From: a virus
Strand: one strand, 5' to 3'
Length of the DNA: 30,534 bases
IMG/VR virus record: IMGVR_UViG_3300037189_013371
Location: 1 to 30,534 of that record
A program made the position numbers and the translations under genes. The notes below the pieces were generated by a model. It did not search any database. It had not been told where the DNA came from and was given only the letters and a program-made list of their open reading frames with translations. Shown here in pieces: positions 3,381-19,215 of this stretch. Every line of letters starts with the position of its first letter. Positions within the stretch are counted from its first letter, which is position 1.

Positions 3381-5189
3381 ATGAGCGATTCTCTGGAATA
3401 CAACCTACCTAAAAACGCATACATAAACTTTGATGCGTTATCCCTAAAAGATTTCATCATCCAACGGTTGAATGAGAATCCCAAATTCACGGATCAGAAT
3501 TACGAGGGGAGCAATTTGGCTTCTTTCATCGATATTATCGCATACAGCTATCATACCCTGCTTTTCTATTTGAATCAGACGGGATCGGAAGCTCTTTTCT
3601 CCCAGACATCGCTCTATGAGAACATGAACAAGATCGTGAACCTTGTGGGATACAATCCTACGGGTAAGCAAACGTCCCTCGTTCCCGTCACTTGCACCGC
3701 CAGTTCCTCCCTAGCGGCTGGGAACTACACTCTCCGCAAGTATTCCTATTTCCTTGTCAACAACATCCAATACACTGTCCTGAACGATTTCTCCTTTGAG
3801 AAGACCACAAGCGGATCGGAGAAAATCGAATCCATTGAAAACAATCTCATTCTCTATCAGGGAACCGTTCAGGAATATCCGATTTATACGGCGGAAGGCA
3901 AGGAATTTGAAACCTTCCCCGTTGTTGTTGATAATCTGGTGGATGAGAACGATAATCGTTTCATTGCCCATGGCACTCTTAGTGTTTATGTGAAAGAAGC
4001 GGGAGATGCAACTTGGTATGAATACGAAGAAATTGATAATCTGTTTCTCACTCCCGATTCCGATAGATACTATTCGGTTCGTCTCAATGAGAACGGACAC
4101 TATGAAATCAAATTTGGTAATGATGTGTTTGGTAAGAAACTTGTCGAGGGGGATCAGGTTGCCGTTTATTATCTCCTAAGCGATAATGACAAAGGGATTA
4201 TCAGCAAGAACGTCATCAATGGTAATAAATTGTTCAATTTCAACACATCCCAATTCACGGCAATTTATAATGATGTTATTTTAGTTGATCCATCGTCCAT
4301 CATTGACCTGACAAACAATGCCACCTTGAATTTTTCCAATACTGCCAATTCCACGGCAATTTCCGATGGAGAGACAGTGGATCAGATTCGTCAGAATGTT
4401 CCCAAGTATCTCAGTTCGCAGCTTAGGCTTGTGACAGAGATTGATTATGACACATATCTCACCAAAAACCTTTCCAACGTGCTGCAATCAGTGGAAGTGG
4501 TGAACAACAAGAGGTTCATTGATGAATATATTGATTATTTCTATAGTATCTGCGTTGATCCCAACAAATCCAATAGGGTTATATTGAATCAGGTTAATTT
4601 CGCGGATTCCTGCGACTTCAACAACGTGAATATCTTCGTGGTTCCCAAGTTCGTGGTTCAAACAGATGCAGAGTATCCCTCATTCCTTTCAAACAGCCTG
4701 AAAAACCTTATCATCGACTCCACGTTTGATAAGAAGATGCTTAGTCATGAAGTTGTCCCCCGTGATCCAATCTATGTGGCATTTGATATTGGTTATTCGG
4801 CTCAGGCGGCGGATAAAAATGTGTATTCCACCTCCAAATTGGAAATCGTTCGCACAGCCAATTCCAAGATCAACAAGGAGAACCTGAAAAAAAGAATTAT
4901 CAACATTATTCTGGATTTCTTCAACCCTCTCAACAATTCTCTGGGTCAAAGGCTTGATCTATCAGACCTGACATCCATAATTCTTGGGTTGGAAGGTGTT
5001 GACAAGATTAGAACCCGCAATGGGAATGAGATATTCAATGGAATCTCCTTCATAAGCTGGAATCCGGTCTATGAGGGGGTGGATGAAGAGTTCGTAAACC
5101 AGACAACCACACTCCCATTTTTCAAGTTCCCTTATTTTTACAGACCACAAACAATCGGAGATAGAATCCTAATCACAGACAGCGAATGA
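3381..5189 (+). CDS. 6: Baseplate wedge protein, gp6/J-like
   Basis: This 602-residue protein matches T4 gp6 (about 660 residues), the dimeric wedge protein that forms the continuous inner ring of the baseplate. The N-terminal 110 residues show the typical start: an NFDALSLKDFIIQRLNENPK helix, then an SNLASFIDIIAYSYHTLLFY helix, then ENMNKIVNLVGYNPTGKQTS. The centre has a J-like beta domain (YYSVRLNENGHYEIKFGNDV), followed by GETVDQIRQNVPKYLSSQLR and TEIDYDTYL, which are J-domain hallmarks. The C-terminus has SLGQRLDLSDLTSIILGLEG, the ring-contact region of this family. Its TGA stop overlaps the next start as ATGA, so the two genes are probably translationally coupled. Confidence 0.93.
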   Translation: MSDSLEYNLPKNAYINFDALSLKDFIIQRLNENPKFTDQNYEGSNLASFIDIIAYSYHTLLFYLNQTGSEALFSQTSLYENMNKIVNLVGYNPTGKQTSLVPVTCTASSSLAAGNYTLRKYSYFLVNNIQYTVLNDFSFEKTTSGSEKIESIENNLILYQGTVQEYPIYTAEGKEFETFPVVVDNLVDENDNRFIAHGTLSVYVKEAGDATWYEYEEIDNLFLTPDSDRYYSVRLNENGHYEIKFGNDVFGKKLVEGDQVAVYYLLSDNDKGIISKNVINGNKLFNFNTSQFTAIYNDVILVDPSSIIDLTNNATLNFSNTANSTAISDGETVDQIRQNVPKYLSSQLRLVTEIDYDTYLTKNLSNVLQSVEVVNNKRFIDEYIDYFYSICVDPNKSNRVILNQVNFADSCDFNNVNIFVVPKFVVQTDAEYPSFLSNSLKNLIIDSTFDKKMLSHEVVPRDPIYVAFDIGYSAQAADKNVYSTSKLEIVRTANSKINKENLKKRIINIILDFFNPLNNSLGQRLDLSDLTSIILGLEGVDKIRTRNGNEIFNGISFISWNPVYEGVDEEFVNQTTTLPFFKFPYFYRPQTIGDRILITDSE

Positions 5190-7270
5190 GCAGCTTTAGC
5201 GACATTGAATTTAGTGTTCTGGATTGGAAGAACGAAAATGTGTTGAGTTCCTATGCTCTGGAACAGACACCGCTTCGGTTCGTTCCCGATCTGGAGGATT
5301 TCAGCTACGTTCGGGTCTTGTGGGACTTTGGGGATGGAACCATTTCCAGTTCTTTAACAGCAGAGAAGTATTGGGAAAATCCCGGCAAATATGTCGTCAA
5401 TTTCACACTATATGATTGCTATTCCAATGCGGTGATTTCCACGGAATACAAGATCATCCACATTATCGATTATCTCAAGCACACGTTCACCGTAGATTTC
5501 GACAGTCCCCCTTACTATGACAATATATCATGGAAATTGGGACAGATTAGTGATCCTATCACAATCAGAGCATATTATCCCCCCACCATTCCGATCACAA
5601 GCCTGTTCTACCGCATAAGTGGAAGCAACAGCGATTACTATTTTGATGAATCTACAAAATTCCGGCATTTGGATAAAACCTATGCTTTCCACGAGAAGAT
5701 TTACAACAATTACCTCTCAAGCTACCAGTATCAAGAGATTGACCGCATTACAACTGATAATACTTCGGTATATGCCAAGATATCGGGAACCAATCTGATC
5801 AATGCCACTGAATCTGATAATAATTCGTTTTTTGTTGGTGTATCAGGAACCAAGGATATTCATTTCAAGGATGATTCCATCAATCGCATCAACATTGACC
5901 TGTTTTTTGATAGAAGTGTGGAATATCTCAACAATCGAAATAACACCAAGATTTCCCTATCAGCCCTTATCGTGGATAACGATGAAGTGGCGGATTTATC
6001 CATCACCAGCAATGGATTGGATGGAGAGTTCTATGAAATTGATTCGTTCAAAATCGATGGTAAAAAATTCTCCCATGTGGACATACCATTTGTTATAAAA
6101 ATCAAGGATTCGGAGAATTTCAGCGTCAAGAACTTTCCCCTGCTTTCCGCTTCCAATGTCAATGTTCTGGTATTATCGGGGGGAGACGTGGTAAATTCTT
6201 CTTATTATGAATTGGAAGATGTGGGAGCTTATTATGGTTCGGCTAGGGGTAAGATAAAATTAAAAACGAACGATGTTTTACACTATGTTCAGTTGAGTGC
6301 TAATTTAACCACAACCAATAACCAAGGAAGTTCATATTCCTTAGTGGGTATCACAGATTATTTTGATGTATATCCAAGAAATTACATATTTATTGAAAAG
6401 AAAAACGAGGATTTTGATGCTCAAGAGACATTTAAGAGTCTGCGATTTCAAGAATTTCTTCTTGATAAAACTGTATTGTTTGATGATTTCATGGGATCGG
6501 TGTTTGGAACCCTCAGTTCTTCCTACGATACACTTGGTAAGAAAATATACGAAAAAATTACTAATTTTGTGGAAAACACTCAAGATGTGGACAGATGTGA
6601 GATTTTTCCCTTGATTTCACAGATGAGAATGACGGGCGTTGACAACGATGTGTTTGAATCCAACTTGTTCACTTATCCAGAGAAAATAAAACGAATTCTA
6701 GACTTGGGATCAATTAGTAAAAATAAATTGATTGGATATAACAACAAATTCAAGGAGAATTTTGATATCAAGGGATTTTCTTCCAAGGAAATCTTTGGAA
6801 CCAATCTGGGTAACGAGATAAACACTGATACATACATCATATCAGCGGGAATTCCCATTGTAGCTCTGGAGAAATTCTCAAATCGTTATGTATTATTGAA
6901 TACTGAACAACCCACAGAAGAAACCGGATTGAGTGCTTACATGTTATCTGGTTATAACGCAAATTGGGGTTGGCCGTTGGTTCTTCCTGATATCTACCAA
7001 TATTCCGATTTGGAGAAGTATTACCTGTTCTTTGAATACCAATCGGGATATGAAAATACTCTTGTTGATAATACCATCGTGTATAATTATACCCTTTATG
7101 ATAACCTCTCATCCAAACACGTATTGAGAGGTGAAAATGGGGAACCCATACTCACCGAAACATCCCAACCAATCTTTGAAGAATTCGATTTCGATTACAA
7201 TTCAGAAATGATGAACATTTCTTTTCGTGATACCCTATATCAGTCTTTATCATTGTATCATCTGGGTTAA
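5186..7270 (+). CDS. PKD-domain tail/baseplate structural protein
   Basis: This 694-residue protein occupies the position of T4 gene 7 but I see no convincing gp7 similarity. Residues 41-90 form a PKD-like domain, with WDFGDGT at 46-52 and YWENPGKYVVNFTLYD at 62-77, the W-x-F-G-D-G and G-x-Y-x-V-x-L strands of that immunoglobulin-like fold. Residues 95-400 look all-beta and Ser/Tyr/Asn-rich. The last 250 residues are more helical (DDFMGSVFGTLSSSYDTLGK), then strand-rich again. There is no signal peptide, as expected for a protein assembled in the cytoplasm. It overlaps gene 6 by four bases. It is probably a baseplate periphery or fibre-attachment protein, inferred from position and fold. Confidence 0.87.
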   Translation: MSSFSDIEFSVLDWKNENVLSSYALEQTPLRFVPDLEDFSYVRVLWDFGDGTISSSLTAEKYWENPGKYVVNFTLYDCYSNAVISTEYKIIHIIDYLKHTFTVDFDSPPYYDNISWKLGQISDPITIRAYYPPTIPITSLFYRISGSNSDYYFDESTKFRHLDKTYAFHEKIYNNYLSSYQYQEIDRITTDNTSVYAKISGTNLINATESDNNSFFVGVSGTKDIHFKDDSINRINIDLFFDRSVEYLNNRNNTKISLSALIVDNDEVADLSITSNGLDGEFYEIDSFKIDGKKFSHVDIPFVIKIKDSENFSVKNFPLLSASNVNVLVLSGGDVVNSSYYELEDVGAYYGSARGKIKLKTNDVLHYVQLSANLTTTNNQGSSYSLVGITDYFDVYPRNYIFIEKKNEDFDAQETFKSLRFQEFLLDKTVLFDDFMGSVFGTLSSSYDTLGKKIYEKITNFVENTQDVDRCEIFPLISQMRMTGVDNDVFESNLFTYPEKIKRILDLGSISKNKLIGYNNKFKENFDIKGFSSKEIFGTNLGNEINTDTYIISAGIPIVALEKFSNRYVLLNTEQPTEETGLSAYMLSGYNANWGWPLVLPDIYQYSDLEKYYLFFEYQSGYENTLVDNTIVYNYTLYDNLSSKHVLRGENGEPILTETSQPIFEEFDFDYNSEMMNISFRDTLYQSLSLYHLG

Positions 7271-7273
7271 ATA
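7268..7273 (+). promoter_or_regulatory. TAAATA box before the 7280 gene
   Basis: The sequence GTTAAATAATGCTAATG contains the previous gene's TAA stop inside the box. The ATG at 7280 stands six bases after the box; the ATG at 7274 touches it. This favours 7280 as the real start. Confidence 0.5.
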
Positions 7274-7279
7274 ATGCTA

Positions 7280-9844
7280 ATGACTCTAGCATCATTAGGA
7301 TATCCGAACATTCCCAAGTCCATCACCAATCCAAATGTGGTGGTTCGTGATGCTCTGGATGCGAATACGCCACTCTCGTTCCTCCAATTCATTAAAACGA
7401 TGGATGTATCGTTCAATCCGTCTAAAAATCAGGATTATTATACAGCATACCTAAAGGCATGGAATTTTGCGAAGAATACCAAGACGGTAGATGATAATTC
7501 CGTGATCATTGAGCGTTATCGGGAGTTCATTCAGGATGTCAATCTGGAATATACTACTTTGGAAGAACAGAAGTTCCTATCCAAGTTGGATTTCAACGAT
7601 CCCCTTGATCTTGACATCGCCATTCCTTTCTATTCCCGAAAATTGATTGAAATATCGGAATATTATAATAAAAAACGAGAAGAAGCCAAATTCCAGATCA
7701 CTAAAAAGAGAATTTCTGGCACAAATTTCGGATTAACCAAGGATATTAAAGATATCACCATCAATTATTTGGAAAATCTTGATAATAGTAAGATCAATTA
7801 TGATTTTACTGATTTGAAAACCAATCTGGAGGTTGAAATTGAGGAACTATATGAGACATATCCTGAATACTTCAACCAAACTCCCAACGATCAGATATAT
7901 GATAACAAGGATTTGGATTATGGGTTGGATATTTTTCTAAAAACCAATGCGGAACTCATTCCTGAAGTGTTTGCAGGAGTATCGTCTTCCCTGATAGAAT
8001 TGAAAGAGGGTAATTCCCTATTGGATAATAAGAGAAAATTAACGGAAAAATACATATCTTCCAATTATTATTATCTATCAACTGGTTCCACAGTGTATGA
8101 TTTCGTTTCCGGTAAGATGTTGGATGCCAACAATCCAGCAGCTTCTTTTTTCAACACAAAATATCCCACGACCGCATCCACGCAGAGGAAAGAATTCAAA
8201 ACACCCATGGAAATGGGATTCTTCCGTCCCCACAAGCTCTCCATTATTTTGATTGATGGGGAAAGACCTGCATATTCCTTCAATTTTGACAATCTGGAAC
8301 CCAATACGATTTATTATTTTCCTGATCCTGATATTAGGGGTAATAATGATGGTGTTCTAACATTTGTCAATAATGATTTATTTCTGAAACGCGATGATTC
8401 ATCGGGAAATGCCAAGAATCAACCGATCAGCGATAAAAGCGATTCCCAATATTACGGTTATATATCCCAAACGGAAAATACCCCCTCAAAATATCTGGAT
8501 AAGATATTTGAATCAGGTTACATTCAGGATGCAAAGGAAGACATCTACAACAATCTCTATGGATTGTTTAAAAATGATGGAAGCTTTAAGCAAACTATTG
8601 AGGTAATCCCCGAAACGGAAAAACAATATTATATTCTAGATGGACATACCTTCTATGATTTCAAATATGGAGAAGGATACGCCTTCAACTATTCCACATT
8701 TGATGATTCCACCTTCCCATACACCACAAGATCGGGATTATCTTCATACACTGGAAGATTCACCACCGATTTCTCCAGACATTACATCCTTTTCGGAGGA
8801 AAATTCACGGATAATTTCGTATATCCTCCCGATTTTTACCCAAATTGTCAAATTCTGGAAGGTTATAGTGTTTTCCGTGATGGTGTTCCCGTAACTGATA
8901 CCATATCATCTGATTTAAGTGGGTATCCTCTCAGTGGGACGTATTATTACTCTCGTCTAATTGAAGGAGGTGTCCATGACTCATCCCCTCTCCGAAGAGC
9001 ATTGGTTGATCCCTCATATCCAACTTTAACTGCGAATGCAACCCAAGAAATCGTTCCTGATGAAGTGAATACCTTCATGATCGATGGTGGAAAAGCAACG
9101 TTCTCTTTGTGTGATACACCTTTTCAATTTCCATCCATCTATTACGATCCCACGGTATTGCAATCCAGTGTTTATAATCTTTCATCTTCCCCAACTGAGA
9201 ATTACTTTACAAGGTTATCATCCACTGGCACCTTATACGTTAGAAACGCATATACCAAAGAAGTAAAACCATTTCAAACGACTTTCAATTACCTATCCAC
9301 AACTCTGTTGAGTTCGGTTTACAACGAATTATCAGGTATTCATTCGTTTGAAATTGTGGGAGACACCATGTTCATCCAAACCAACAACAACCTCATCGCT
9401 CAAAAAATCCTATTTGAGAATGGAGACTTTGTAAATCCCAAGGAATCAACATATGTTACGACATTCAATGCAAATCCTTACCAGAAAATATCCAAACGAT
9501 TCAAGAAACGGGATAAGGTATATTATGCTCTGATTGACACCGATACTTACCCGATATCAAGCAACAATTTCAAAATATATCCAACTATATATGAAATTGA
9601 TACTACAAAAAATACCAGAAAAATCTATTCCGTGGGTGGATTAACCAATTTCTACTCGATATCTGGTGGTTTGAATACATATATCAAAGCGGAAGAACCC
9701 ATATTCACATATAATAATCGTTCTGATCAATATAACATTTCATTCCTTATGAAAACGGCAGATAGTCAATTCATCATTCAGGAATTTGACTTCAAGCTGA
9801 ATCCTTTATCCATGATGAATCATAAGCAAATCAAACAACGATGA
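7280..9844 (+). CDS. Large unknown tail/baseplate structural protein
   Basis: This protein of about 854 residues has no family I recognise. The N-terminal 280 residues are mostly helical and charged (YNKKREEAKFQITKKRISG). The rest is a long run of beta-rich, Tyr/Ser/Asp/Pro-rich sequence, with YYFPDPDIRGNNDG and many Y-x-Y and S-S-Y strands, typical of baseplate or fibre proteins. There are no catalytic motifs, membrane segments or cysteine clusters. Two ATGs are available, 7274 and 7280; 7280 fits the fixed box-to-start distance seen elsewhere. Its TGA overlaps the next ATG by four bases. A virion role is inferred from the neighbours gp6 and the collar protein. Confidence 0.85.
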   Translation: MTLASLGYPNIPKSITNPNVVVRDALDANTPLSFLQFIKTMDVSFNPSKNQDYYTAYLKAWNFAKNTKTVDDNSVIIERYREFIQDVNLEYTTLEEQKFLSKLDFNDPLDLDIAIPFYSRKLIEISEYYNKKREEAKFQITKKRISGTNFGLTKDIKDITINYLENLDNSKINYDFTDLKTNLEVEIEELYETYPEYFNQTPNDQIYDNKDLDYGLDIFLKTNAELIPEVFAGVSSSLIELKEGNSLLDNKRKLTEKYISSNYYYLSTGSTVYDFVSGKMLDANNPAASFFNTKYPTTASTQRKEFKTPMEMGFFRPHKLSIILIDGERPAYSFNFDNLEPNTIYYFPDPDIRGNNDGVLTFVNNDLFLKRDDSSGNAKNQPISDKSDSQYYGYISQTENTPSKYLDKIFESGYIQDAKEDIYNNLYGLFKNDGSFKQTIEVIPETEKQYYILDGHTFYDFKYGEGYAFNYSTFDDSTFPYTTRSGLSSYTGRFTTDFSRHYILFGGKFTDNFVYPPDFYPNCQILEGYSVFRDGVPVTDTISSDLSGYPLSGTYYYSRLIEGGVHDSSPLRRALVDPSYPTLTANATQEIVPDEVNTFMIDGGKATFSLCDTPFQFPSIYYDPTVLQSSVYNLSSSPTENYFTRLSSTGTLYVRNAYTKEVKPFQTTFNYLSTTLLSSVYNELSGIHSFEIVGDTMFIQTNNNLIAQKILFENGDFVNPKESTYVTTFNANPYQKISKRFKKRDKVYYALIDTDTYPISSNNFKIYPTIYEIDTTKNTRKIYSVGGLTNFYSISGGLNTYIKAEEPIFTYNNRSDQYNISFLMKTADSQFIIQEFDFKLNPLSMMNHKQIKQR

Positions 9845-10326
9845 ATACCAAATTCCTATCACTGTCTTCCCTGAATACCAACCAGACCACCACATCTCCC
9901 ACAATCGGGTTAGTTGATAATACATTATTGACAATATCGCTGTCTGGAGCAACGGAAAGGATTTTTCCAACACATCTCATCATTCAATGGGGAGATGGGG
10001 TCGAGGATTTCTTTGAAAATGACATATTACAAAACCAAAATATTGCTTCCAATATCTTTTCGTCTCTGCTGATAGATAGATACACCCATGAATATTTTCC
10101 ATCGACTGTTTCAACGAGCCAAACGCTGACGGCGACATTTTCCTTATATTATACCAATTCAAATATATCCACGTTTACACTACCCTTATCAATCACAAAT
10201 TATGATTATGCCACTTCAGTTGGCGATGTTCGACTTGTAAATACTGATTATTTGCAGAATGGTAATAAAATACATCAATTAGTCACGGATGAGGGAGGCT
10301 ATCTAGTGGAACTACTCGTTAAATAA
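9841..10326 (+). CDS. Small PKD-like beta-sandwich structural protein
   Basis: This 161-residue protein starts inside the previous stop (ATGA). It reads like a single immunoglobulin-like or PKD-like domain: IIQWGDG ends at residue 53 and YTHEYFPS begins at 81, the spacing of the W-G-D-G and Y-x-H-x-Y signatures in PKD domains, with alternating polar and hydrophobic strands after it. The C-terminal 30 residues (GDVRLVNTDYLQNGNKIHQL) may be a separate contact segment. No Cys, signal peptide or membrane helix is visible. With the PKD domain of the 5186 gene this makes two such folds in one transcription block. The exact role is unknown; a decoration or connector protein is likely. Confidence 0.82.
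   Translation: MNTKFLSLSSLNTNQTTTSPTIGLVDNTLLTISLSGATERIFPTHLIIQWGDGVEDFFENDILQNQNIASNIFSSLLIDRYTHEYFPSTVSTSQTLTATFSLYYTNSNISTFTLPLSITNYDYATSVGDVRLVNTDYLQNGNKIHQLVTDEGGYLVELLVK
10320..10325 (+). promoter_or_regulatory. TAAATA box before the GTG start at 10331
   Basis: The sequence GTTAAATAATCTTGTG leaves five bases between box and GTG. The box contains most of the previous TAA stop. The constant distance supports the unusual GTG as the real start. Confidence 0.5.
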
Positions 10327-10330
10327 TCTT

Positions 10331-11497
10331 GTGGCTATTTTGTTTGATAAATTATCCTCCTGTGAATCCGTTGCTCTTTCCTCAAATTTGGAGGATGTGA
10401 GGTTTCAAAATTTTTCAAGATATTATCAAGGGGATTACACCTTGACGTTTTACAACGCCCTTTCTGGTATCGTGGATGTAAAAAATAAGAATTATACCAA
10501 TTTTTTGATGACCCGAAACACGAAAATATCAAATATTCTGGAAAAGGAAGATCAAACATTAAAATCAGAATCCTTATTAACCAATTTGAATTTTGGGGGC
10601 AATTTTCTAACATTTCAAAAAGCTGATGCCAGACGATTGGGGTTATTAGGCATTTACAATGAGAGTGAATACTATGGCAATTATAATTTCACTGCCGATG
10701 GGGATGCTTTACCGACAAATTTCGTGATTACGTTAAAAGCTAACAATGTTTGTGATATTTATCAATATTATGATTACAAAAAGTATTATTTGACTAAAAA
10801 TGCTGATGATGAATTGAATTTTTATACTCAAAATCTGGGATTGACTGCATTTGATTTCAAATACATATACTCCCGTCCAAATAAAGCGATATTTCTATTT
10901 CAAACCTTATCAGGGGTTACTCATTTTGTCCGAAAAACCGGAAATCTACTCACACTATCACCATCCACATCTGCAAATAAAGCGAGTGTGTATGCAAATC
11001 CAATTTACCTAAGCAAAGACATATATTCTGATTTCAATATCAACCCCAATACTTCTTATGTTGAATATGGAGACGATAATACCATATCGGAAAACGGAAT
11101 ATTAAAAGACTTGGAAAACAATTATCTATTGCATAGGGAAAATGATTCAACGGATATTATCATTCTAAAAAATCAACTATCTCAAGATAACACATTCACA
11201 TCGGGAAATACCCTATTGTCATCTCAAGATTTGAAATTTTTTGTGAATGGTATGCGGAATTATACATCCATTTTTAATGATATTGATACTGAAAAAGACG
11301 AAACTTTGGCTCTGAATTATGTGTTTTATAACAAATCATATGAAATTCTTCCCGGATTGAATCGCTTTACCGCACAGATAACATGTCACCATTCAATAGG
11401 ATCAATATCAACGATACAAAATTCGTACAATCGGGAGCATTTGGATATCCTACTCCCGAATATGCAGATAAAGTGTATCGCTCCGATATTTCAGTGA
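10331..11497 (+). CDS. Structural protein, N-terminal half of a frameshift-split gene
   Basis: This 388-codon frame starts at a GTG fixed by a TAAATA box. It is a Tyr/Asn/Ser-rich, beta-strand-rich protein with no recognised domain. Up to about codon 347 (EILPGLNRFTA) it reads as normal protein. The last 38 or so residues (CHHSIGSIST onward) are composed unlike the rest and look like out-of-frame reading of the next gene, which overlaps it by 115 nt. The simplest reading is that the natural protein continues in the -1 frame near 11372-11383 and is about 740 residues long. No classic slippery heptamer is visible, so a mutation or a base missing from the assembly is as likely as programmed frameshifting. 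Confidence 0.75.
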   Translation: MAILFDKLSSCESVALSSNLEDVRFQNFSRYYQGDYTLTFYNALSGIVDVKNKNYTNFLMTRNTKISNILEKEDQTLKSESLLTNLNFGGNFLTFQKADARRLGLLGIYNESEYYGNYNFTADGDALPTNFVITLKANNVCDIYQYYDYKKYYLTKNADDELNFYTQNLGLTAFDFKYIYSRPNKAIFLFQTLSGVTHFVRKTGNLLTLSPSTSANKASVYANPIYLSKDIYSDFNINPNTSYVEYGDDNTISENGILKDLENNYLLHRENDSTDIIILKNQLSQDNTFTSGNTLLSSQDLKFFVNGMRNYTSIFNDIDTEKDETLALNYVFYNKSYEILPGLNRFTAQITCHHSIGSISTIQNSYNREHLDILLPNMQIKCIAPIFQ

Positions 11498-12555
11498 GTT
11501 ATGACGATGGACAGACATATCTATGCACTTGGTTATCCGGTTCTCCCCTTGGTAGCGATAAAGTGTGGGTGGATCGTTATTATTATCCCGATTTGATTGA
11601 AAAATCCTCTGCACTGGCAGGAGATAATACTTTTAATTTAACATATGATGATGTCGTGGAGAAACTGGTGGCTGGAAATAGTTCAATACAGGACAGTCTC
11701 TCATCTTTCACCGTGTTTGATAAGAAAAGTGATATGTTATTTGTGCCGAATGGCAAATATACATACGAAAGAATTCAAGTGGAAGTAAACACCGATGATC
11801 TAGTGGTAATAACTCCGTGTCAATCCCTGACGACAACAGGAAACAATATCAATTATTTCAAACAATTGAATGACGCTGGTAAATTCACAGTAAAATTTTA
11901 TTTTGAAGGCGATGGGCAAAATTGGACATTTAAAAGTAAAAGAAATAACACCGATGGAGGGCTTTCAATTGATAAACAAGGAAGTGATCTAATTTTTACC
12001 ATGAATCTTTACAATCCCGGATTTGTTGAAATCATCACTTTTAGCGAAACAGTGAAATATAAACCATTTCAACGCAATTTCATTTGTTTTTCCATTGATG
12101 CCATTACTGGACAATTATACTTCTTCCTAAACAATCAAATTGTGGGTTATTATACATTTGATAGAAATCAATTTTTTGGCAAACGATTGGTATTTGGGGA
12201 TTTTGTCTTGAATGGTGTGGATATTTTCTCACAAAACATATTATCAAAAATTGGGATAACCGCAGAATATACATCGGAAAATATCGCTTTCATTACCCCA
12301 ATGCTTGATGGAGAATCTGTTATTGATCCCATTTCAATCACACTACCTTGTGGTATGAGAAACAGCACTGATACCGTGGAATATCTTCAAAGTGTGTGTA
12401 ACAACCAAGCTTATAAATCCAATTTCGTCAACATATTCATCAAAAATGTTGAATTGGAAGACACTGATATGGATGGACTTCGCAATAGGATAACATCGGA
12501 GATTGTTGATCGCTCTCCGCTAACAACCGAAATAAATAATCTAATACTTTCATGA
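11383..12555 (+). CDS. Structural protein, C-terminal half of the split gene
   Basis: This 390-codon frame begins MSPFNRININDTKFVQSGAF, then PTPEYADKVYRSD, which reads like the middle of a tail protein rather than a beginning. In the -1 frame relative to the 10331 gene it extends the motif FTA-TDN-MSPF smoothly. Residues 165-280 form a beta-rich stretch resembling a concanavalin/LamG-type carbohydrate-binding jelly roll (FICFSIDAITGQLYFFLNN). Independent translation from the ATG at 11383 is possible, since AGATAACATG lies there, but no TAAATA box or Shine-Dalgarno site is present. Its stop overlaps the next start (ATGA). Whether it is one protein or half of one is open. Confidence 0.78.
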   Translation: MSPFNRININDTKFVQSGAFGYPTPEYADKVYRSDISVSYDDGQTYLCTWLSGSPLGSDKVWVDRYYYPDLIEKSSALAGDNTFNLTYDDVVEKLVAGNSSIQDSLSSFTVFDKKSDMLFVPNGKYTYERIQVEVNTDDLVVITPCQSLTTTGNNINYFKQLNDAGKFTVKFYFEGDGQNWTFKSKRNNTDGGLSIDKQGSDLIFTMNLYNPGFVEIITFSETVKYKPFQRNFICFSIDAITGQLYFFLNNQIVGYYTFDRNQFFGKRLVFGDFVLNGVDIFSQNILSKIGITAEYTSENIAFITPMLDGESVIDPISITLPCGMRNSTDTVEYLQSVCNNQAYKSNFVNIFIKNVELEDTDMDGLRNRITSEIVDRSPLTTEINNLILS

Positions 12556-14330
12556 TATCATTTTTTAAATTCTCGTCAGGTGAAGCATTTACACTAAACG
12601 GTGTGAACTACTTTGGATTCTTTAATGTTGAAGATGGCGTTGCTTACACCGAACGCAAAAAAAGCACAACATCAGAACAACTTGTTCCGAAAAACACGTT
12701 CATTTCGGATTTTTATCTGAATAAGATGGAATTTGATAATCAATTTGATTCCATCACAGAAGCATCAAATATGACCGCCAATGTTTTCGATGTTCTCAAT
12801 AAAGTTGAGATGGAGAGATTACTATCCATTATCGATCAAAATAATCTGATCGTTTTCAAATCTTTGGTAATTAATAATCCTCAAATTATCAATTTTACAG
12901 AAAACGAGTCTCATTATTACGGGTTGTCATCCACCATTGTTGACATGAGAAACGATGATCTCATGCTTGGAAAGAAAAACATCTCCCATATTGACCCGTT
13001 TCGCTATGAAATTGAATGGGCATTTCTTGAAAAAATTAAATATGGAGCATTGTTCGTAAAATCTGATCAAACATTCAAATATCTATGTTCAACTGGTTTT
13101 GAACTTTACACGCTTAAAGGATCATTTACAGATGAAGGGTATATTGAATATTCTGTTCAGGAATTGGAAATATCCGAAGAGGTATATGGAATTGATTACG
13201 ATGAATTTGAAGACAAGATTACCATCATTGTAAATGGTGATTTGAAGGTTTATGATGCCATAAACTATATTGAATGTGATACTCTGGTATTAGTGGATAA
13301 TATTAAATTGGGAGATGTTGATTCCGAAATTCTCACTTGGGGAACACAGAAGGAATTTAAAAATTTAATCGGTAAATGGAGTCGAAATTTTTATAACCTC
13401 ACAGAATATTCCACGGAATTCATACGGTTTGGTAACAATTACCGAACATCCATTGAAGGTAATAACTTAACTCTTCGAAATAAATATTCGACCGATAAAA
13501 TTGTTGACTATGATTTAGAATCTATTGGTATCGATCAACTATTGGATGTTAATATTAGGGTTATTGATGATTGTGTCCTCATCCTACATAAAAAATCTGA
13601 AAAATTCCATATAACATTCTTTGATCCTCTTGATATGGAGAACACTTTATTTGATCGAGAAATTTTCGAGTTCAATGATAGTGATAATTATAGAATTTCG
13701 TTTTCAACCTATGATTCAAACGTGTTTTATTTGAATAGTACTGCCCAATCTCATACCCGTATGATCTCTAATCCCACGTATCCAGTGGGGCAAATGAGAG
13801 AAAACAATTTGAAATATGTGAAGAAAGAAACATTTAAGAATTATTTACAAAAATTCGGTAATGGGGTGTTGAAATGGAACACGGAAACAACGGATTCCAA
13901 TTTTTTCACAAATTACATGTTTGATAGTATTACCAAATCAGATAAGAATTATATGTTTCTTCTAAATTCTGGCAGAATCTATCCAATTCGCCAGAATATA
14001 TTAAATTCGTATCTATCATCCGTTCCCTTAGATTTAATAAAAACATATGACGGTATTCGTTGTTCGGACACATCTTTTGGACTGTTTTTAAATAAAACAA
14101 TCTCATATATTTTGAAAGATATATTAACATTATACACCAAAGCCACCAATTCCTATTCAATCGGCAAAAATGATGTGTTTTTGAATAAAATTCGAGAAAT
14201 CACATATGACACCAATAATCTGTATATGAATGGCAATGAAACTGTCAACGTTTTGATGTTACAGCGGATTTTAACGCTGTTGACAGACTTGCAAAAACAA
14301 TTAGTTGCTAATTTAACATCGCAACAATAA
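12552..14330 (+). CDS. Unknown tail structural protein
   Basis: This 592-residue protein overlaps the preceding stop by four bases. The N-terminal 150 residues contain FTLNGVNYFGFFNVEDGVAY and a helical ASNMTANVFDVLNKVEMERL stretch. The centre repeats short hydrophobic strands (IDYDEFEDKITIIVNGDLKV) suggestive of a beta-propeller or repeated beta-hairpin fold. The C-terminus NNLYMNGNETVNVLMLQRIL is helical and ends TDLQKQLVANLTSQQ, probably an oligomerisation or docking helix. I recognise no catalytic motif. It closes the block before the collar and fibre genes and may link the baseplate to the fibres; this is inference from order only. Confidence 0.83.
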   Translation: MISFFKFSSGEAFTLNGVNYFGFFNVEDGVAYTERKKSTTSEQLVPKNTFISDFYLNKMEFDNQFDSITEASNMTANVFDVLNKVEMERLLSIIDQNNLIVFKSLVINNPQIINFTENESHYYGLSSTIVDMRNDDLMLGKKNISHIDPFRYEIEWAFLEKIKYGALFVKSDQTFKYLCSTGFELYTLKGSFTDEGYIEYSVQELEISEEVYGIDYDEFEDKITIIVNGDLKVYDAINYIECDTLVLVDNIKLGDVDSEILTWGTQKEFKNLIGKWSRNFYNLTEYSTEFIRFGNNYRTSIEGNNLTLRNKYSTDKIVDYDLESIGIDQLLDVNIRVIDDCVLILHKKSEKFHITFFDPLDMENTLFDREIFEFNDSDNYRISFSTYDSNVFYLNSTAQSHTRMISNPTYPVGQMRENNLKYVKKETFKNYLQKFGNGVLKWNTETTDSNFFTNYMFDSITKSDKNYMFLLNSGRIYPIRQNILNSYLSSVPLDLIKTYDGIRCSDTSFGLFLNKTISYILKDILTLYTKATNSYSIGKNDVFLNKIREITYDTNNLYMNGNETVNVLMLQRILTLLTDLQKQLVANLTSQQ

Positions 14331-14338: not shown

Positions 14339-14947
14339 ATGGCTCTACCTGATTTAACCAATTTATTCGTCGCTGATAGTTACAAAGGTGTTCTACACAC
14401 TGCAAATGTTCCACTATCTGGAGCAAACCTACCCCCTGTTTATGACGGATTGGGTAACAAATCTTCTTTAAAGTTGGGTTCTGATGGAAACGGCGCGAGT
14501 ATTAGTGGGTGTTTATCAGCGGATTGTATCAACATAGCTGGATTTACTCTCATTGATTATCTTTATCCAGTTGGTGCAGTTTATCTTGATACTTTGGATG
14601 TTAATCCCCAAACTCGATTTGTGGGAACTACTTGGGGTAAGATTTCGGAAGGTAAATTCCTCGCTGGAGTTGGTACGGGTGCTGATAAAAACCTCACGAA
14701 TCAAATTTTACTGGCTGGAGATGATTCCTCCATTGGAGAATACACGCACAGATTAACTGTTACTGAAATGCCATCACATACTCACGATCTTACAAGTTTT
14801 GCATATGTTGGAGATAGGGATAATGATGAAAATAAAGGTTATTGGGATCAAGGTGGCACTTTAACAACACAATCGACTGGTGGTGATCAACCACATAACA
14901 ACATCCCCCCATACTTCGGTGTTTATATCTGGAAACGTTTAACATAA
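14339..14947 (+). CDS. Tail-collar/short-tail-fibre tip protein, gp12-like
   Basis: This 202-residue protein has the C-terminal tip architecture of T4 gp12/gp10 tail-collar proteins. LYPVGAVYLD (75-84) and FVGTTWGKISEGKFLAGVG (94-112) match the collar domain start. EMPSHTHDL (143-151) gives the H-x-H metal ligands, and PHNNIPPYFGVYIWKR (185-200) is the usual closing motif of receptor-binding tips. The first 70 residues are a short attachment region with no collagen-like repeats, so the protein is much shorter than T4 gp12 (527 residues). It probably forms a trimeric adhesin tip at the baseplate. The domain assignment is firm; its receptor is unknown. Confidence 0.92.
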   Translation: MALPDLTNLFVADSYKGVLHTANVPLSGANLPPVYDGLGNKSSLKLGSDGNGASISGCLSADCINIAGFTLIDYLYPVGAVYLDTLDVNPQTRFVGTTWGKISEGKFLAGVGTGADKNLTNQILLAGDDSSIGEYTHRLTVTEMPSHTHDLTSFAYVGDRDNDENKGYWDQGGTLTTQSTGGDQPHNNIPPYFGVYIWKRLT

Positions 14948-14948
14948 T

Positions 14949-16019
14949 ATGGCTGATATTTACATTTCAAAAATCAAGGTTCGCAGAGGGACAAACGCAG
15001 AGATTAATTCAACACGTTTTGACCAAGGAGAACTTGTCCATGCAACGGATTCCAAACGCCTGTTTATTGGTAACGGTGTATTGAGTGGAGGTAATCCAGT
15101 TTCCAGTAAAGTTCACCCACCATTGACCAATTATTCAAGCCTTAGCACCACTTTGGCGGAAGTTGGTGATCTGGTATCGGTTAATTCCATTTGGTATCAA
15201 CTGACAGCATCCCCTTATAGCTCTGCTAGTAATTGGGGTGATATGAGAACCAAATTCTCTTCTGAATTTGTATATACAAATTCCACAGTGAATATGGCAG
15301 TTAGTGGATTATCGGCATCCAAAATCAATCCAAATACTGTTACAAATGGTGTTAATATAATTGATGGAAAAATTCAATTAAATTATAGAACCAATTTCTT
15401 TGAACTGTCATCAAATCAGCTTTCCATTAAGACTGGAGGGATCACCACACGGGAAATTCTTTCTTCATCCTTTGCAAATGGATTGAGTGGTGGTAATGGA
15501 AAACCGATTTCATTAACAGTATCTCCGAACGATTTCACATTTCGATCTGGTATTTTATCGGCTAATTACACACGAATTTCTGCGTATGGATTGAATACCC
15601 AATCACATCTTCCAGTATCAGCTTATAACGCCTTGAGTGCTTTGAATGCTAAACTTGGAGATACCTCATCTTTTGATAAAGTAATTTATCAATTACAAAC
15701 ATCGCCAAATATTTTAGGAAATTGGGAGGCTATTTCCAAGGATGGTATCGCAGATTCGATTTATGACACTTTAACTGGTAATTCGACCCGAAATTCCAGT
15801 AATTCCCTGTCATCCATATTTAACGGTAGTCCATCTCAAACTACGGATGGTATTGTTCCGGGTATAAAGCTCACCAGCTTCACTGCATTATCAAGTAATG
15901 GTCTTTCTTCTGTTACGATAACTCTCTCATCCGCTGGATTCATCACCTTTGCAGGAAATTATACCTCCGAAACAGGAAAATCTATAAACAGATTTGCAGT
16001 TCCAATCTTCACTTACTAA
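14949..16019 (+). CDS. Tail fibre protein with Mtd-N-like domain
   Basis: This 356-residue protein begins two bases after the collar gene. Residues 5-60 have the beta-prism signature of the major tropism determinant N-terminal domain: KIKVRRGTNAEI, then FDQGELVHATDSKRLFIGNG. Residues 60-100 (VGDLVSVNSIWYQL) are shared with the next gene. The remainder is Ser/Asn/Leu-rich beta sequence (LSSNQLSIKTGGITTREIL) typical of fibre shafts, and the end (GFITFAGNYTSETGKSINRF) is probably a trimeric knob. It has no cysteine cluster and no chaperone-type autoproteolysis motif that I can see. It likely acts in host recognition together with the collar protein. Confidence 0.88.
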   Translation: MADIYISKIKVRRGTNAEINSTRFDQGELVHATDSKRLFIGNGVLSGGNPVSSKVHPPLTNYSSLSTTLAEVGDLVSVNSIWYQLTASPYSSASNWGDMRTKFSSEFVYTNSTVNMAVSGLSASKINPNTVTNGVNIIDGKIQLNYRTNFFELSSNQLSIKTGGITTREILSSSFANGLSGGNGKPISLTVSPNDFTFRSGILSANYTRISAYGLNTQSHLPVSAYNALSALNAKLGDTSSFDKVIYQLQTSPNILGNWEAISKDGIADSIYDTLTGNSTRNSSNSLSSIFNGSPSQTTDGIVPGIKLTSFTALSSNGLSSVTITLSSAGFITFAGNYTSETGKSINRFAVPIFTY

Positions 16020-16020
16020 T

Positions 16021-16488
16021 ATGGCAATATCAATTACAAACGACACTCTTTTAAAGTTGCTTGCTCGTCAAGGAACGAATGCTGAACGTTTAAACGTCCT
16101 TTTAAACTCTGGAGAGTTCGCGTTCACTACTGATACTGAACGTCTTTTTATCGGTAATGGTGCCAACAATGGAGGAGTGTTGACAGGTAATGTGTTTAAG
16201 GGATCAAATCCAGATGTTACCACATTTTCTCCCGCAGAAATAGGAGATTTGGCATATAATAGTGATGCTCTCGTATTGTATAGACTCAAACAAAATGATG
16301 GCTCTCTGTTATCCGATTGGGAGAAAATTGGAGGTTCTGGAGTAACCAGTGACACCAATCAAGCTCTGGGAGGTGTTCAGATTGATAATCTGGTTCGTGT
16401 AACTTCCGTTGCATGGTCAACTCTATCCGCTTCCAACGATCCCAATACTTTTTACATTGTTTCCAATGTGAATTATATGATTGCATAA
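16021..16488 (+). CDS. Short Mtd-N-like fibre protein, paralogue of the preceding gene
   Basis: This 155-residue protein starts one base after the previous stop. Its first 100 residues align with the preceding fibre: RQGTNAE for RRGTNAE, TTDTERLFIGNG for ATDSKRLFIGNG, and AEIGDLAYNSDALVLYRL for AEVGDLVSVNSIWYQL. The end has AWSTLSASNDPNTFYIVS, a very common strand pattern at the end of phage tail adaptor domains. After the TAA the -1 frame continues in a Thr-rich stretch ending in a CEEYCKKLGY signature shared with the two downstream proteins. The protein may therefore be a truncated form of a longer mucin-tailed fibre. Confidence 0.85.
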   Translation: MAISITNDTLLKLLARQGTNAERLNVLLNSGEFAFTTDTERLFIGNGANNGGVLTGNVFKGSNPDVTTFSPAEIGDLAYNSDALVLYRLKQNDGSLLSDWEKIGGSGVTSDTNQALGGVQIDNLVRVTSVAWSTLSASNDPNTFYIVSNVNYMIA

Positions 16489-16607
16489 ACCATATAACAA
16501 GCACTACTATAACACCAATAATCTCAATGGATACCACCACGTTTTTTCCAAAAACTGAAACGATATTTTCTAATTGTGAAGAGTATTGTAAAAAATTAGG
16601 ATATTAA
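16489..16607 (+). pseudogene. Stranded Thr-rich tail with CEEYCKKLGY signature
   Basis: This stretch between two genes is open in the frame -1 to the preceding gene. It reads INHITSTTITPIIS, then MDTTTFFPKTETIFS, then NCEEYCKKLGY and a stop, four bases before the next ATG. The last 11 residues match the end of the following protein at 9 positions. It lacks the CC-x-PPP segment found in the two full-length relatives. It could be the tail of the 16021 gene cut off by a one-base loss, the product of -1 frameshifting, or a separate 26-residue peptide from the ATG at 16528. Nothing in the sequence decides between these. Confidence 0.6.
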
Positions 16608-16611
16608 TATT

Positions 16612-17532
16612 ATGAGTGATTGTTGCACCGTTTACAACCCCGAAACCGGACTTGACGAGATAAACTGTATTGAACACGGGAACACCACACCAAAGTGGCG
16701 GACTGTATCACTTCTAAACGGTGGAATATATGGATGGACAGAATTGTTTGGCAACGAGGATGATGACAAATGGGCTATGCCGACTAGCGGTGAAACTACC
16801 TACACTGAACCAGCAGGTGTTATGTTCAACACATCACGCATAACAAGAGCTACATTGCGATTTCACATTCCTACAATTCTTACACAAGGAGGCGATTATT
16901 CTCCATACGCAGTTGATTTTTACTTTAATCTTTGGATCAATCCGTCAAACGCTCCATTCTCTAACGAGATCACGCCAGTCGGTGGTCATCTTTTAGCCAG
17001 TGGTGTTAATATTGGCAACTCCCCCCAGACCGTCGATTACGTTGTCGATCTTGAGGCACTGGGACTCGAATGCCGCCAGTGCGATAACTGGAATGTGCTT
17101 TGGAATTCAAGCAGTTATATTGACAACTACATAACTGCCACGGATGGTTCGTTTACCATGGAGATCGTTGACGTGACTTTCTGCCCATCCACTACCAGCA
17201 CATCTACAACATTATCTGGAACAACTACCTCTTCACCCACCACTACCTCTTCACCCACCACTCCTTCGCCGACATCTACTACCAGTAATTGTTGTGCGCC
17301 TCCTCCAAATCCACCAGTAATCATTCCTCCCACAATCCCCCCCTTTACAACGCGATCCATACCACCCCTGACTATTAACGTCACTTTACCACCAACTATC
17401 AATCCTTTTACAGATAAAATAGTAACTACCACTCAAACGACGACCACACTTACTACATCAACCACGCTGTCTCCAACTACTACTGTAACACCTCTTGAAT
17501 GTGAAGAATTTTGTAAAAAGTTAGGATATTAA
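16612..17532 (+). CDS. Mucin-like tail protein with C-terminal Cys signature (1)
   Basis: This 306-residue protein has three parts. Residues 1-190 form a folded beta-rich domain with scattered Cys (SDCCTVYN, LECRQCDNW) that could be a carbohydrate-binding or fibre domain; I do not recognise the family. Residues 191-226 are almost pure Thr/Ser/Pro. From 227 come NCCAPPPNPPVIIPP, a Pro-rich stretch, a second Thr run (VTTTQTTTTLTTSTT) and the closing LECEEFCKKLGY. The C-terminal half is shared with the next gene while the N-terminal domains differ, so the tail is an exchangeable module. It starts four bases after the stranded tail. The Thr/Ser runs resemble mucin O-glycosylation sites; a glycosyltransferase gene lies two genes downstream. 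Confidence 0.88.
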   Translation: MSDCCTVYNPETGLDEINCIEHGNTTPKWRTVSLLNGGIYGWTELFGNEDDDKWAMPTSGETTYTEPAGVMFNTSRITRATLRFHIPTILTQGGDYSPYAVDFYFNLWINPSNAPFSNEITPVGGHLLASGVNIGNSPQTVDYVVDLEALGLECRQCDNWNVLWNSSSYIDNYITATDGSFTMEIVDVTFCPSTTSTSTTLSGTTTSSPTTTSSPTTPSPTSTTSNCCAPPPNPPVIIPPTIPPFTTRSIPPLTINVTLPPTINPFTDKIVTTTQTTTTLTTSTTLSPTTTVTPLECEEFCKKLGY

Positions 17533-17533
17533 A

Positions 17534-18364
17534 ATGGCTGCAAGTTATTCAGTATTGGCATCTCTGGGTTGGTCGGATACGTCTGATTATGATCTTTATG
17601 CAAGGAAAAATACTGGTTCTGCTATTTATTATAGTAATCTAACGAGTGATGGGTTGACCTTGAATTGGGATGCATATCCCTATTGTGTGGAAGGTGATGG
17701 ACCCCCACCAGAAATAATTTCAAGTGATGTTAATTATACTGTTGAAAATACTTTTTATTTTTGGTATAATAGATTTTCTACATGTGGTGATGGTGGTAGT
17801 GTCACTACCTCAGTCACTATCACCAACACGGGAGATGTTAATATTTGGGTTAATGATACCTTGGTAACTCCGGGTAATAATTTTGTTGGTGGTATTGAAC
17901 TTGTAAGTTCTGGGGGTGATCAAAGTGGATACATGGGGGGAACAGAATATGATGTAACATTTTCTACACCCACCACCAGCACATCTACATCTACATCTAC
18001 ATCTACATCTACATCTACCAGCACATCTACATCTACCAGCACTACCACGACATTATCTGGGACAACTACCTCTCCACCTACCACTCCTCCACCCACCACC
18101 AGCACACCCACAACGACAGAATGTTGTTTTCCTCCTCCAAACAGCCCAAATACCAACATACCACCATTTCCATCATTCACCACGGTAACATTACCACCCC
18201 TTGTAATCAATCCAAGACTCCCAACCACATTAAATCCTCTAACCATAGGTATAACGACTTCAGCAACCACTACGACAACGACTACGACATTGATCCCTGT
18301 GATATCTACCACTCAACAAATAAAAATTGAATGTGTGAGCTATTGTAAAAAGCTCGGTTTTTAA
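17534..18364 (+). CDS. Mucin-like tail protein with C-terminal Cys signature (2)
   Basis: This 276-residue protein starts one base after the previous stop. Residues 1-143 are a beta-rich domain (LGWSDTSDYDLYARKNTG, IYYSNLTSDGLTLNWDA, GPPPEIIS) that resembles the DUF2135/YfaP pattern of Asp-rich beta sandwiches, without certainty. A run of alternating Ser-Thr follows, then TTTTLSGTTTSPPTTPPPTT, ECCFPPPNSP, FTTVTLPPLVINPRLPTTLN, a Thr octet, and the end IECVSYCKKLGF. The Ser-Thr run is encoded by a hexanucleotide microsatellite, so its length can change in frame. It has the same C-terminal module as the preceding protein but an unrelated head. It is likely a fibre or decoration protein exposed on the virion. 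Confidence 0.88.
   Translation: MAASYSVLASLGWSDTSDYDLYARKNTGSAIYYSNLTSDGLTLNWDAYPYCVEGDGPPPEIISSDVNYTVENTFYFWYNRFSTCGDGGSVTTSVTITNTGDVNIWVNDTLVTPGNNFVGGIELVSSGGDQSGYMGGTEYDVTFSTPTTSTSTSTSTSTSTSTSTSTSTSTTTTLSGTTTSPPTTPPPTTSTPTTTECCFPPPNSPNTNIPPFPSFTTVTLPPLVINPRLPTTLNPLTIGITTSATTTTTTTTLIPVISTTQQIKIECVSYCKKLGF
17979..18046 (+). repeat. In-frame ACATCT hexamer microsatellite
   Basis: Six tandem copies of ACATCT run from 17981 to 18016, followed by ACCAGC, two more ACATCT, another ACCAGC and ACTACC. Each unit encodes Thr-Ser. Because the unit is six bases, slippage lengthens or shortens the mucin-like stalk without breaking the frame. Confidence 0.9.
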
Positions 18365-18375
18365 TAATTACTGTT

Positions 18376-19215
18376 ATGCGAAAACTAACGATTGGTATTC
18401 CTACCTATAATGATTATGATGGATTGTATTTCAGTATCCAAGCCATTAGAATGTATCACCCCGAAGTCATAAATGACATTGAATTTGTCATTATTGATAA
18501 TAATCCCGATTCAGATCATGGTAAATCCAATCGTAATCTAACGAATTGGATCAAGGAACCCTATCAGTATCTACCATTCACCAAATACAACGCATCCACC
18601 GTTAAAAACAAGGTATTTTCTCTATCTGATACACCATATACCCTCTGCATGGACAGTCATGTGATGATTGTCCCCGGTGCTTTGAAAAAACTGATCCATT
18701 TATATGATTGTGGAGGAGATGCTGGTAATCTTTTACAGGGACCATTGGTTTATGATGACTTTCATCATTATTCCACTCATTTCGATAACACTTGGAGTTC
18801 TCATATGTGGGGGACATGGCAAACGGATGAGAGAGGCAAGGAAACGAATGCTCCCCCCTTTGAAATACCCGCCCAAGGCATGGGATTGTTCTCTTGTAGA
18901 ACAGACTCATGGTTGGGCTTCAACAAAGCTTTCAGGGGCTTTGGGGGGGAGGAGAAGTATATCCATGAGAAATACCGCCAACACGGTAAGAAGACGCTCT
19001 GCTTGCCCTTCCTGCGCTGGTTACACCGCTTTGAGCGTCCTGCTGGTATCCCATACAAGAATGATCTCAAGGATCGCTTCCGTAATTACATGATTGGGCA
19101 TCACGAATTGGGACAAGATACCAAAGTTCTCAAGGAACAATTCAAAGGTGTGATATCTGTTGAAGATATGAATAAGATTGAGGTGGAAGCCAAAATGTTA
19201 TCAAATATTCCCTAA
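18376..19215 (+). CDS. Glycosyltransferase, GT-A fold, GalNAc-transferase-like motifs
   Basis: This 279-residue protein is a cytosolic family-2-type glycosyltransferase. The N-terminus LTIGIPTYNDYDGLYFSI and EFVIIDNNPDS are the nucleotide-binding strands. The metal site is D93-S94-H95 (CMDSHVMIVPG), the DxH form found in polypeptide GalNAc-transferases rather than the usual DxD. Residues 165-219 (PAQGMGLFS, then FRGFGGEEKYIHEKYRQHG, then LHRFER) line up with the GLF, WGGEN-E and H-V-F-R elements of the Gal/GalNAc-transferase motif, with H217 as a likely third metal ligand. There is no membrane helix or lectin domain. It follows the two mucin-like genes directly, so they are the obvious candidate acceptors. 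Donor sugar and acceptor are inferred, not shown. Confidence 0.9.
   Translation: MRKLTIGIPTYNDYDGLYFSIQAIRMYHPEVINDIEFVIIDNNPDSDHGKSNRNLTNWIKEPYQYLPFTKYNASTVKNKVFSLSDTPYTLCMDSHVMIVPGALKKLIHLYDCGGDAGNLLQGPLVYDDFHHYSTHFDNTWSSHMWGTWQTDERGKETNAPPFEIPAQGMGLFSCRTDSWLGFNKAFRGFGGEEKYIHEKYRQHGKKTLCLPFLRWLHRFERPAGIPYKNDLKDRFRNYMIGHHELGQDTKVLKEQFKGVISVEDMNKIEVEAKMLSNIP

Follow-up and report, generated by a model that had tools for sequence, protein, structure and literature searches.

A GT27-like glycosyltransferase genetically linked to tagged, mucin-like proteins in a T4-like phage: a candidate O-glycosylation system of the virion

Does a phage that encodes a glycosyltransferase directly beside mucin-like proteins use the one to glycosylate the other? 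The locus that raises this question lies in an IMG/VR virus fragment, and the whole stretch analyzed here (30,534 nucleotides, the window) contains recognizable baseplate wedge, SSB, clamp, and primase families. Judged from its sequence, the window phage is a T4-like myovirus; the named phages that resemble it do so distantly, with Pelagibacter phage HTVC008M and Synechococcus phages at about 24-25% identity. An initial annotation had described two consecutive genes for Thr/Ser/Pro-rich tail proteins followed by a gene for a polypeptide GalNAc-transferase-like enzyme, and had proposed that the enzyme decorates the tracts. The three ORFs are open and collinear at 16612-17532, 17534-18364, and 18376-19215, as placed there, with the reported 11 bases between the second Thr-rich ORF and the glycosyltransferase ORF. 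Every string quoted from them (TTTTLSGTTTSPPTTPPPTT, MDSH, PAQGMGLFS, GFGGEEKYIHEKYRQHG, and LHRFER) was found. As detailed below, this reading is partly supported, by the predicted fold and motifs, the gene linkage, and a bacterial context, while the enzyme is best described as GT27-like.

The Thr-rich gene pair sits in the tail fiber region, downstream of a gene for a Gp10_C baseplate or short-tail-fiber-like protein (14339-14947, + strand; PF21939, 1.6e-19) and two genes for Mtd_N-domain proteins, one at 14949-16019 (+ strand; PF18454, 7.9e-8) and a second, tail-fiber-like one at 16021-16488 (+ strand; PF18454, 2.3e-7). It is this gene position, after Gp10_C and Mtd_N, that suggests the name "tail proteins" for the Thr-rich products. 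The enzyme gene adjoins these Thr-rich genes, which gives the glycosyltransferase a genetic link to putative virion proteins. Elsewhere in the window, several large tail-region ORFs (5186-14330) have no convincing family match, and an ORF on the minus strand (279-1130) reads as a GIY-YIG-like segment followed by homing-endonuclease-type repeats.

Mucin-like protein 1 (306 aa; 16612-17532, + strand) has no Pfam or PHROGs match. It consists of an N-terminal domain of about 190 residues, an S/T/P tract (residues 192-225; 17185-17286, + strand) with an 18-base tandem unit inside it, a Pro-rich segment, a second Thr-rich stretch, and the C-terminal tag CEEFCKKLGY (17500-17529, + strand). Mucin-like protein 2 (276 aa; 17534-18364, + strand), defined by ORF call, S/T/P criterion, and tag, has an unrelated N-terminal domain of about 140 residues, S/T/P tracts, and the tag CVSYCKKLGF (18332-18361, + strand), which follows the same pattern. 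One of its tracts covers residues 144-195 (17963-18118, + strand) and is partly an ACATCT microsatellite, while a run of eight Thr residues (245-252; 18266-18289, + strand) is written in mixed Thr codons. Since all four ACN codons are in use in the tracts, the Thr content appears to be kept mostly at the protein level despite the partial microsatellite. Applying the S/T/P criterion over 30 residues to the non-overlapping ORFs of the window identified 2 of 39 as rich, exactly the two originally pointed out, a richness beyond chance. Inspection of the phage Thr-rich partners gave no sign of a signal peptide. Neither the N-terminal domains of proteins 1 and 2 nor the enzyme have a tblastn match in 50,697 records of cultured phages, and there is therefore no annotated isolate for comparison.

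The shared C-terminal tag was missed by the initial annotation, and the window contains three copies of it. The third closes the short ORF MDTTTFFPKTETIFSNCEEYCKKLGY (16528-16605, + strand; three-frame translation), which ends in NCEEYCKKLGY and has almost no Thr tract. In three-frame translations of the window, L005, L011, L013, L004, and L016, the stretch from the Mtd_N ORF to the enzyme gene is filled in the relatives by a complete Thr-rich gene that ends in the same way. Because a full gene occupies that place in relatives, the short ORF is probably a shrunken or truncated tagged gene, and the window appears to carry a shrunken member besides two intact ones. A programmed frameshift that would fuse the Mtd_N ORF with the tagged tract was also considered and rejected, as in the relatives the downstream ORF is separate and has a start of its own.

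The tag pattern is common to 55 distinct proteins, 28 with an N-terminal domain and 27 without. All 55 contain the same cassette, made up of a Pro/Thr segment, an NPL-like box, a Thr run, and the two-Cys tag, the last being the best-conserved part of the partner proteins. The 28 N-terminal domains form 17 clusters without detectable mutual similarity, and the tagged proteins may thus represent heads that can be exchanged on a shared stalk and anchor. When the tag alone was used to search contigs, 11 stretches came back, of which 10 were newly fetched and one was an already known enzyme locus (L038). The enzyme was found in 7 of the 10 new stretches and is absent from the covered stretches of L154, L158, and L159. 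The C-terminal tag predicts membership of phage proteins in the proposed system.

The enzyme itself (279 aa; 18376-19215, + strand) belongs to the Pfam family Glycos_transf_2 (PF00535, 8e-9), and relatives gathered from virus contigs and bacterial genomes gave an alignment of 94 sequences, 19 of which also have a weak Glyco_transf_7C match. Both the DxH motif (D93-S-H95; 18652-18660, + strand) and the C-terminal His ligand of GT27 are present at the sequence level, the latter as H217 (19024-19026, + strand), which aligns with the third metal ligand of GT27 (VGH). The counterpart of GT27 WGGEN is F189-G-G-E-E193 (18940-18954, + strand), in which GGE is kept, F189 replaces W, and E193 replaces N. 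D93, H95, E192, E193, H217, R218, and F219 are invariant in the alignment. An AlphaFold2 model based on all 94 sequences (pLDDT 95.6, pTM 0.92) replaced a poor earlier model from 13 near-identical ones (pLDDT 47). In a Foldseek search of the PDB, all 50 matches listed are GT27 polypeptide GalNAc-transferases (best E 6e-14), and VIA-align ranks 1-29 are likewise all GT27 (Z 20.3-24.8 over 245-261 residues), followed by the chondroitin polymerase K4CP and RmlT at Z 19.6. The closest viral structure in BFVD is an uncultured Caudovirales protein with 28% identity. Among GT-A folds, the predicted structure is thus nearest to GT27 by both methods. The model, its fold matches, and the DxH, GLF, GGE, and His elements back the proposed GalNAc-transferase-like character. 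Of the outcomes that the initial annotation had named as refuting, a missing DxH-His site and a clear assignment to an enzyme acting on another substrate such as DNA or lipid, neither was seen.

Kinship to GT27 is supported by fold and motifs and not by sequence similarity. A profile of the C-terminal half matches only GalNAc-T7 (E 0.25), GalNAc-T10 (E 0.41), and one unrelated chain; it pairs GLFACR with GLFAI, FGGEE with WGGEN, and RWLH with RVGH, at E-values that alone are not significant. No significant sequence-profile similarity to GT27 was detected (GalNAc-T7, E 0.12-0.25; GalNAc-T10, E 0.41), and Pfam finds no ricin-type lectin domain, all 279 residues aligning to the GT27 catalytic domain. 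Because the similarity is not significant, the W of WGGEN is F, and the lectin domain is missing, the modeled enzyme is to be called GT27-like, not GT27. GT60 enzymes, which add GlcNAc to protein, also have DxH and GEE. The GT60 family PF11397 matches 1 of the 94 members weakly (E 0.27), and GT60, which may still be related, is absent among the PDB matches listed.

In almost all close relatives, an S/T/P-rich, tagged gene lies 11-14 bases upstream of the enzyme gene. A tree made by a quick method places the window in a 31-row phage clade (SH-aLRT support 99), and within that in a 22-row clade (94). In every testable non-redundant row of the smaller clade an S/T-rich gene directly adjoins the enzyme gene, in counts that are not independent events, the members being related. 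L041 starts too near its contig end and was left out of this count; in L062 the S/T-rich neighbor is convergent, and in L017 it has no tag. For background, 33 of 488 ORFs in the same loci are S/T/P-rich, enzyme neighbors included. The co-occurrence of enzyme homologs with Thr-rich proteins, which the initial annotation proposed as a check, therefore holds in all testable rows of the 22-row clade, but only 20 of all 38 testable phage representatives have a rich gene directly upstream, and in an unselected set of 54 Thr8-ORF virus contigs the enzyme is missing from every stretch covered. Thr tracts are thus a frequent feature of phages that lack the enzyme, and a tract alone does not point to it. 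L070, L071, L073, L077, L094, and L096, which lie outside the clade, also have Thr-rich genes near the enzyme, and the L086 and L089 phages carry a long TSTS tract at another place in the genome. L065, L072, L074, and L078-L093 have no Thr-rich neighbor, and the enzyme is found among replication or other genes. Physical linkage to Thr-rich proteins extends across the whole phage clade and, separately, to many bacterial homologs.

The enzyme neighbor in L017 (78-1094), the one without the C-terminal tag, has more than 30 serines in a row in place of threonines. Sulfotransferase-like genes near the enzyme in two phages (L068:917-1603 and L096:3193-3804), as in some bacterial loci, hint at possible sulfated glycans. 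In L070 (4949-6004) and L073 (4917-5999), genes that read as radical-SAM-like, with CxxxCxxC, either overlap the enzyme gene or stand immediately before it.

Chromosomal homologs were found at 56 loci, with 34-54% identity to the enzyme and usually as part of a longer protein. An HprK_rel_A-like domain is present at 27 of the 56, mostly fused to the enzyme, although in NCBIfam and Pfam checks its scores of 76-98 bits fall well short of the curated cut-off of 200. Other partners are a PqqD-like protein (30/56), NTP_transf_5 (15/56), and a sulfotransferase (5/56). These fusions near PqqD and NTP_transf_5 resemble the HPr-rel-A system (TIGR04352, HprK-related kinase A; TIGR04353, PqqD family chaperone), whose partners lie near about half of the bacterial homologs. 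The phages, in contrast, have the transferase domain only, with no PqqD, NTP_transf_5, or HprK in the loci of the phage representatives. One bacterial homolog (L104:4329-6737) is C-terminally fused to a GT25-like domain (PF01755), which could possibly add a second sugar.

At 19 of the 56 bacterial loci there are 27 small pre-proteins with one leader, RR..LK...W.KP...PAHA, which looks like a Tat signal carrying an AxA cleavage site. Many members of this family have T/S/P-rich tails, such as TTTTTTTTTTTTTVAPP, and examples with Thr-rich tails occur at L102:3232-4253, L114:4657-4944, and L128:1467-2919, and also in L121 (Desulfofustis glycolicus DSM 9705), L104, and others. The family is linked to PqqD and HprK-like genes and is often multi-copy, with up to 10 members in one Desulforhopalus genome. 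In the order around Desulforhopalus, it is found in 9 of 10 genomes with the glycosyltransferase versus 29 of 233 without (Fisher 2e-7, or 7e-6 minus the two genomes that seeded the profile). In the order around Hyphomicrobium it is found in 2 of 297, both with the enzyme; one is a seed genome, and the co-occurrence there rests on one new genome. The tails are S/T/P-rich more often in genomes with the enzyme (10/24) than in genomes without it (3/28), a modest difference (p 0.02), and the family is broader in distribution than the enzyme. In the open-licence literature we found no paper describing this family, linking HPr-rel-A/PqqD with Thr-rich proteins, or linking GT27 with phages. Thr-rich partners therefore recur near the enzyme in a second, cellular setting, with proteins unrelated to those of the phages, and this recurrence argues most strongly for a Thr-rich protein, rather than DNA or lipid, as the acceptor.

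We consider it likely that the enzyme attaches O-linked sugars to the tracts of the tagged proteins, and that the resulting sugar-coated stalks are docked to the virion by the cassette. The product of 18376-19215 would be a cytosolic, metal-dependent GT-A glycosyltransferase acting like a polypeptide GalNAc-transferase, moving a sugar (HexNAc or hexose) from a nucleotide donor to Thr/Ser within the tracts of these proteins, which are encoded upstream, most likely in the cytosol before virion assembly. Stiffened by glycosylation, the tracts would serve as stalks presenting the varied N-terminal domains on the virion, and in relatives without such a domain they would form a plain sugar coat. The shared cassette with its two-Cys tag would dock all partners at one virion site, mark them for the enzyme, or both. 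The analysis itself establishes the genes and motifs, the predicted fold, the linkage throughout the clade, the modular cassette, and the parallel in bacteria; we infer the peptide O-glycosylation, the sugar, the virion location, the role of the tag, and the biological benefit alike, and a role of the stalks in adhesion or shielding is speculative.

The enzyme could instead modify a host surface glycan or lipid (O-antigen, capsule, or teichoic acid), for example to block superinfection, leaving the Thr-rich proteins as unmodified, disordered tail linkers. PF00535 is a broad family, there is a weak PHROGs match to GtrB-like O-antigen conversion (E 0.024), the best PDB sequence matches of the N-terminal half are TarP and K4CP, and bacterial glycan glycosyltransferases come next after GT27 in the fold ranking (Z 18-19.6). 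However, that ranking favors peptide glycosyltransferases, inspection of the enzyme shows no membrane segment or anchor, no flippase or GtrA partner was recognized in the window, and the gene lies beside Thr-rich proteins in both phages and chromosomes, which makes a host glycan an unlikely target. Glycosylation of hypermodified phage DNA appears highly improbable. Other virus-encoded glycosyltransferases are described as acting on DNA in the part of PMC12619734 that cites Pyle et al. 2024, and both the T4-like background and the position of the gene between replication genes in the distant relatives L065, L072, L074, and L086 would suit such a function. It leaves unexplained, however, the clade-wide coupling to tail-region Thr-rich genes and the bacterial Tat/Thr-rich context; no DNA-modifying glycosyltransferase is among the PDB fold matches listed, and no hypermodification gene was recognized within the window.

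It is also conceivable, if very unlikely, that the enzyme acts on the same proteins at another site, by S-glycosylation of the tag cysteines or by adding sugars to the N-terminal domains rather than to the Thr tracts. GT2 enzymes of glycocin pathways S-glycosylate Cys, the two-Cys tag is the most conserved partner region, and the bacterial relatives lie near PqqD, which is typical of peptide-modification pathways. Yet several bacterial Thr-rich tails, such as those of L102, L114, and L128, have no Cys at all, the L017 neighbor is rich while untagged, and the fold match is to Thr/Ser O-transferases.

O-glycosylation of the tracts, the reading we favor, has parallels in known systems. With GT27 (GALNT; GalNAc-T2, T10, and Toxoplasma GalNAc-T3) the phage enzyme shares the whole-protein predicted GT-A fold, the DxH, GLF, GGE, and C-terminal His elements, and a link, here genetic, to Thr/Ser/Pro-rich proteins; it differs in the sequence features given above and in its setting outside any secretory pathway. 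According to PMC12619734, mycobacteriophages are likewise held to sugar-coat virion proteins with phage-encoded glycosyltransferases, with glycans at the C-termini of capsid and tail tube subunits (Freeman et al. 2023, as cited there) and glycan shielding of the virion reported. The acceptors in that account are major capsid and tail tube subunits, whereas the candidates here are tagged, mucin-like accessory proteins paired with a GT27-like enzyme. Serine-rich repeat adhesins of the GspB type are glycosylated intracellularly before export (PMC5578698), and dedicated cytosolic glycosylation of a low-complexity Ser/Thr stalk bearing a binding domain is what we propose here. They differ in their partner genes and in accessory Sec export, in place of which we assume virion assembly.

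Phage virion glycosylation is already known from mycobacteriophages, and the pairing of a GT27-like enzyme with mucin-like acceptors would be a new form of it. Mucin-type O-glycosylation is generally regarded as a property of eukaryotes. A tentative possibility, which we would not yet put at even chances, is a hitherto unrecognized prokaryotic mucin-type pathway in which an HprK-fused, PqqD-assisted enzyme glycosylates, and sometimes with sulfotransferases sulfates, the Thr-rich tails of Tat-exported proteins, while tailed phages use the transferase alone with a tag of their own to make interchangeable mucin-stalked adhesins. If true, GT27-like enzymes with mucin-like acceptors in phages and bacteria would provide a compact model peptide O-glycosyltransferase that lacks a lectin domain, along with possible tools for bacterial glycoengineering. 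Phages of this family probably sugar-coat their own particles, and the system would offer a testable account of how phages come to make sugar-coated adhesins.
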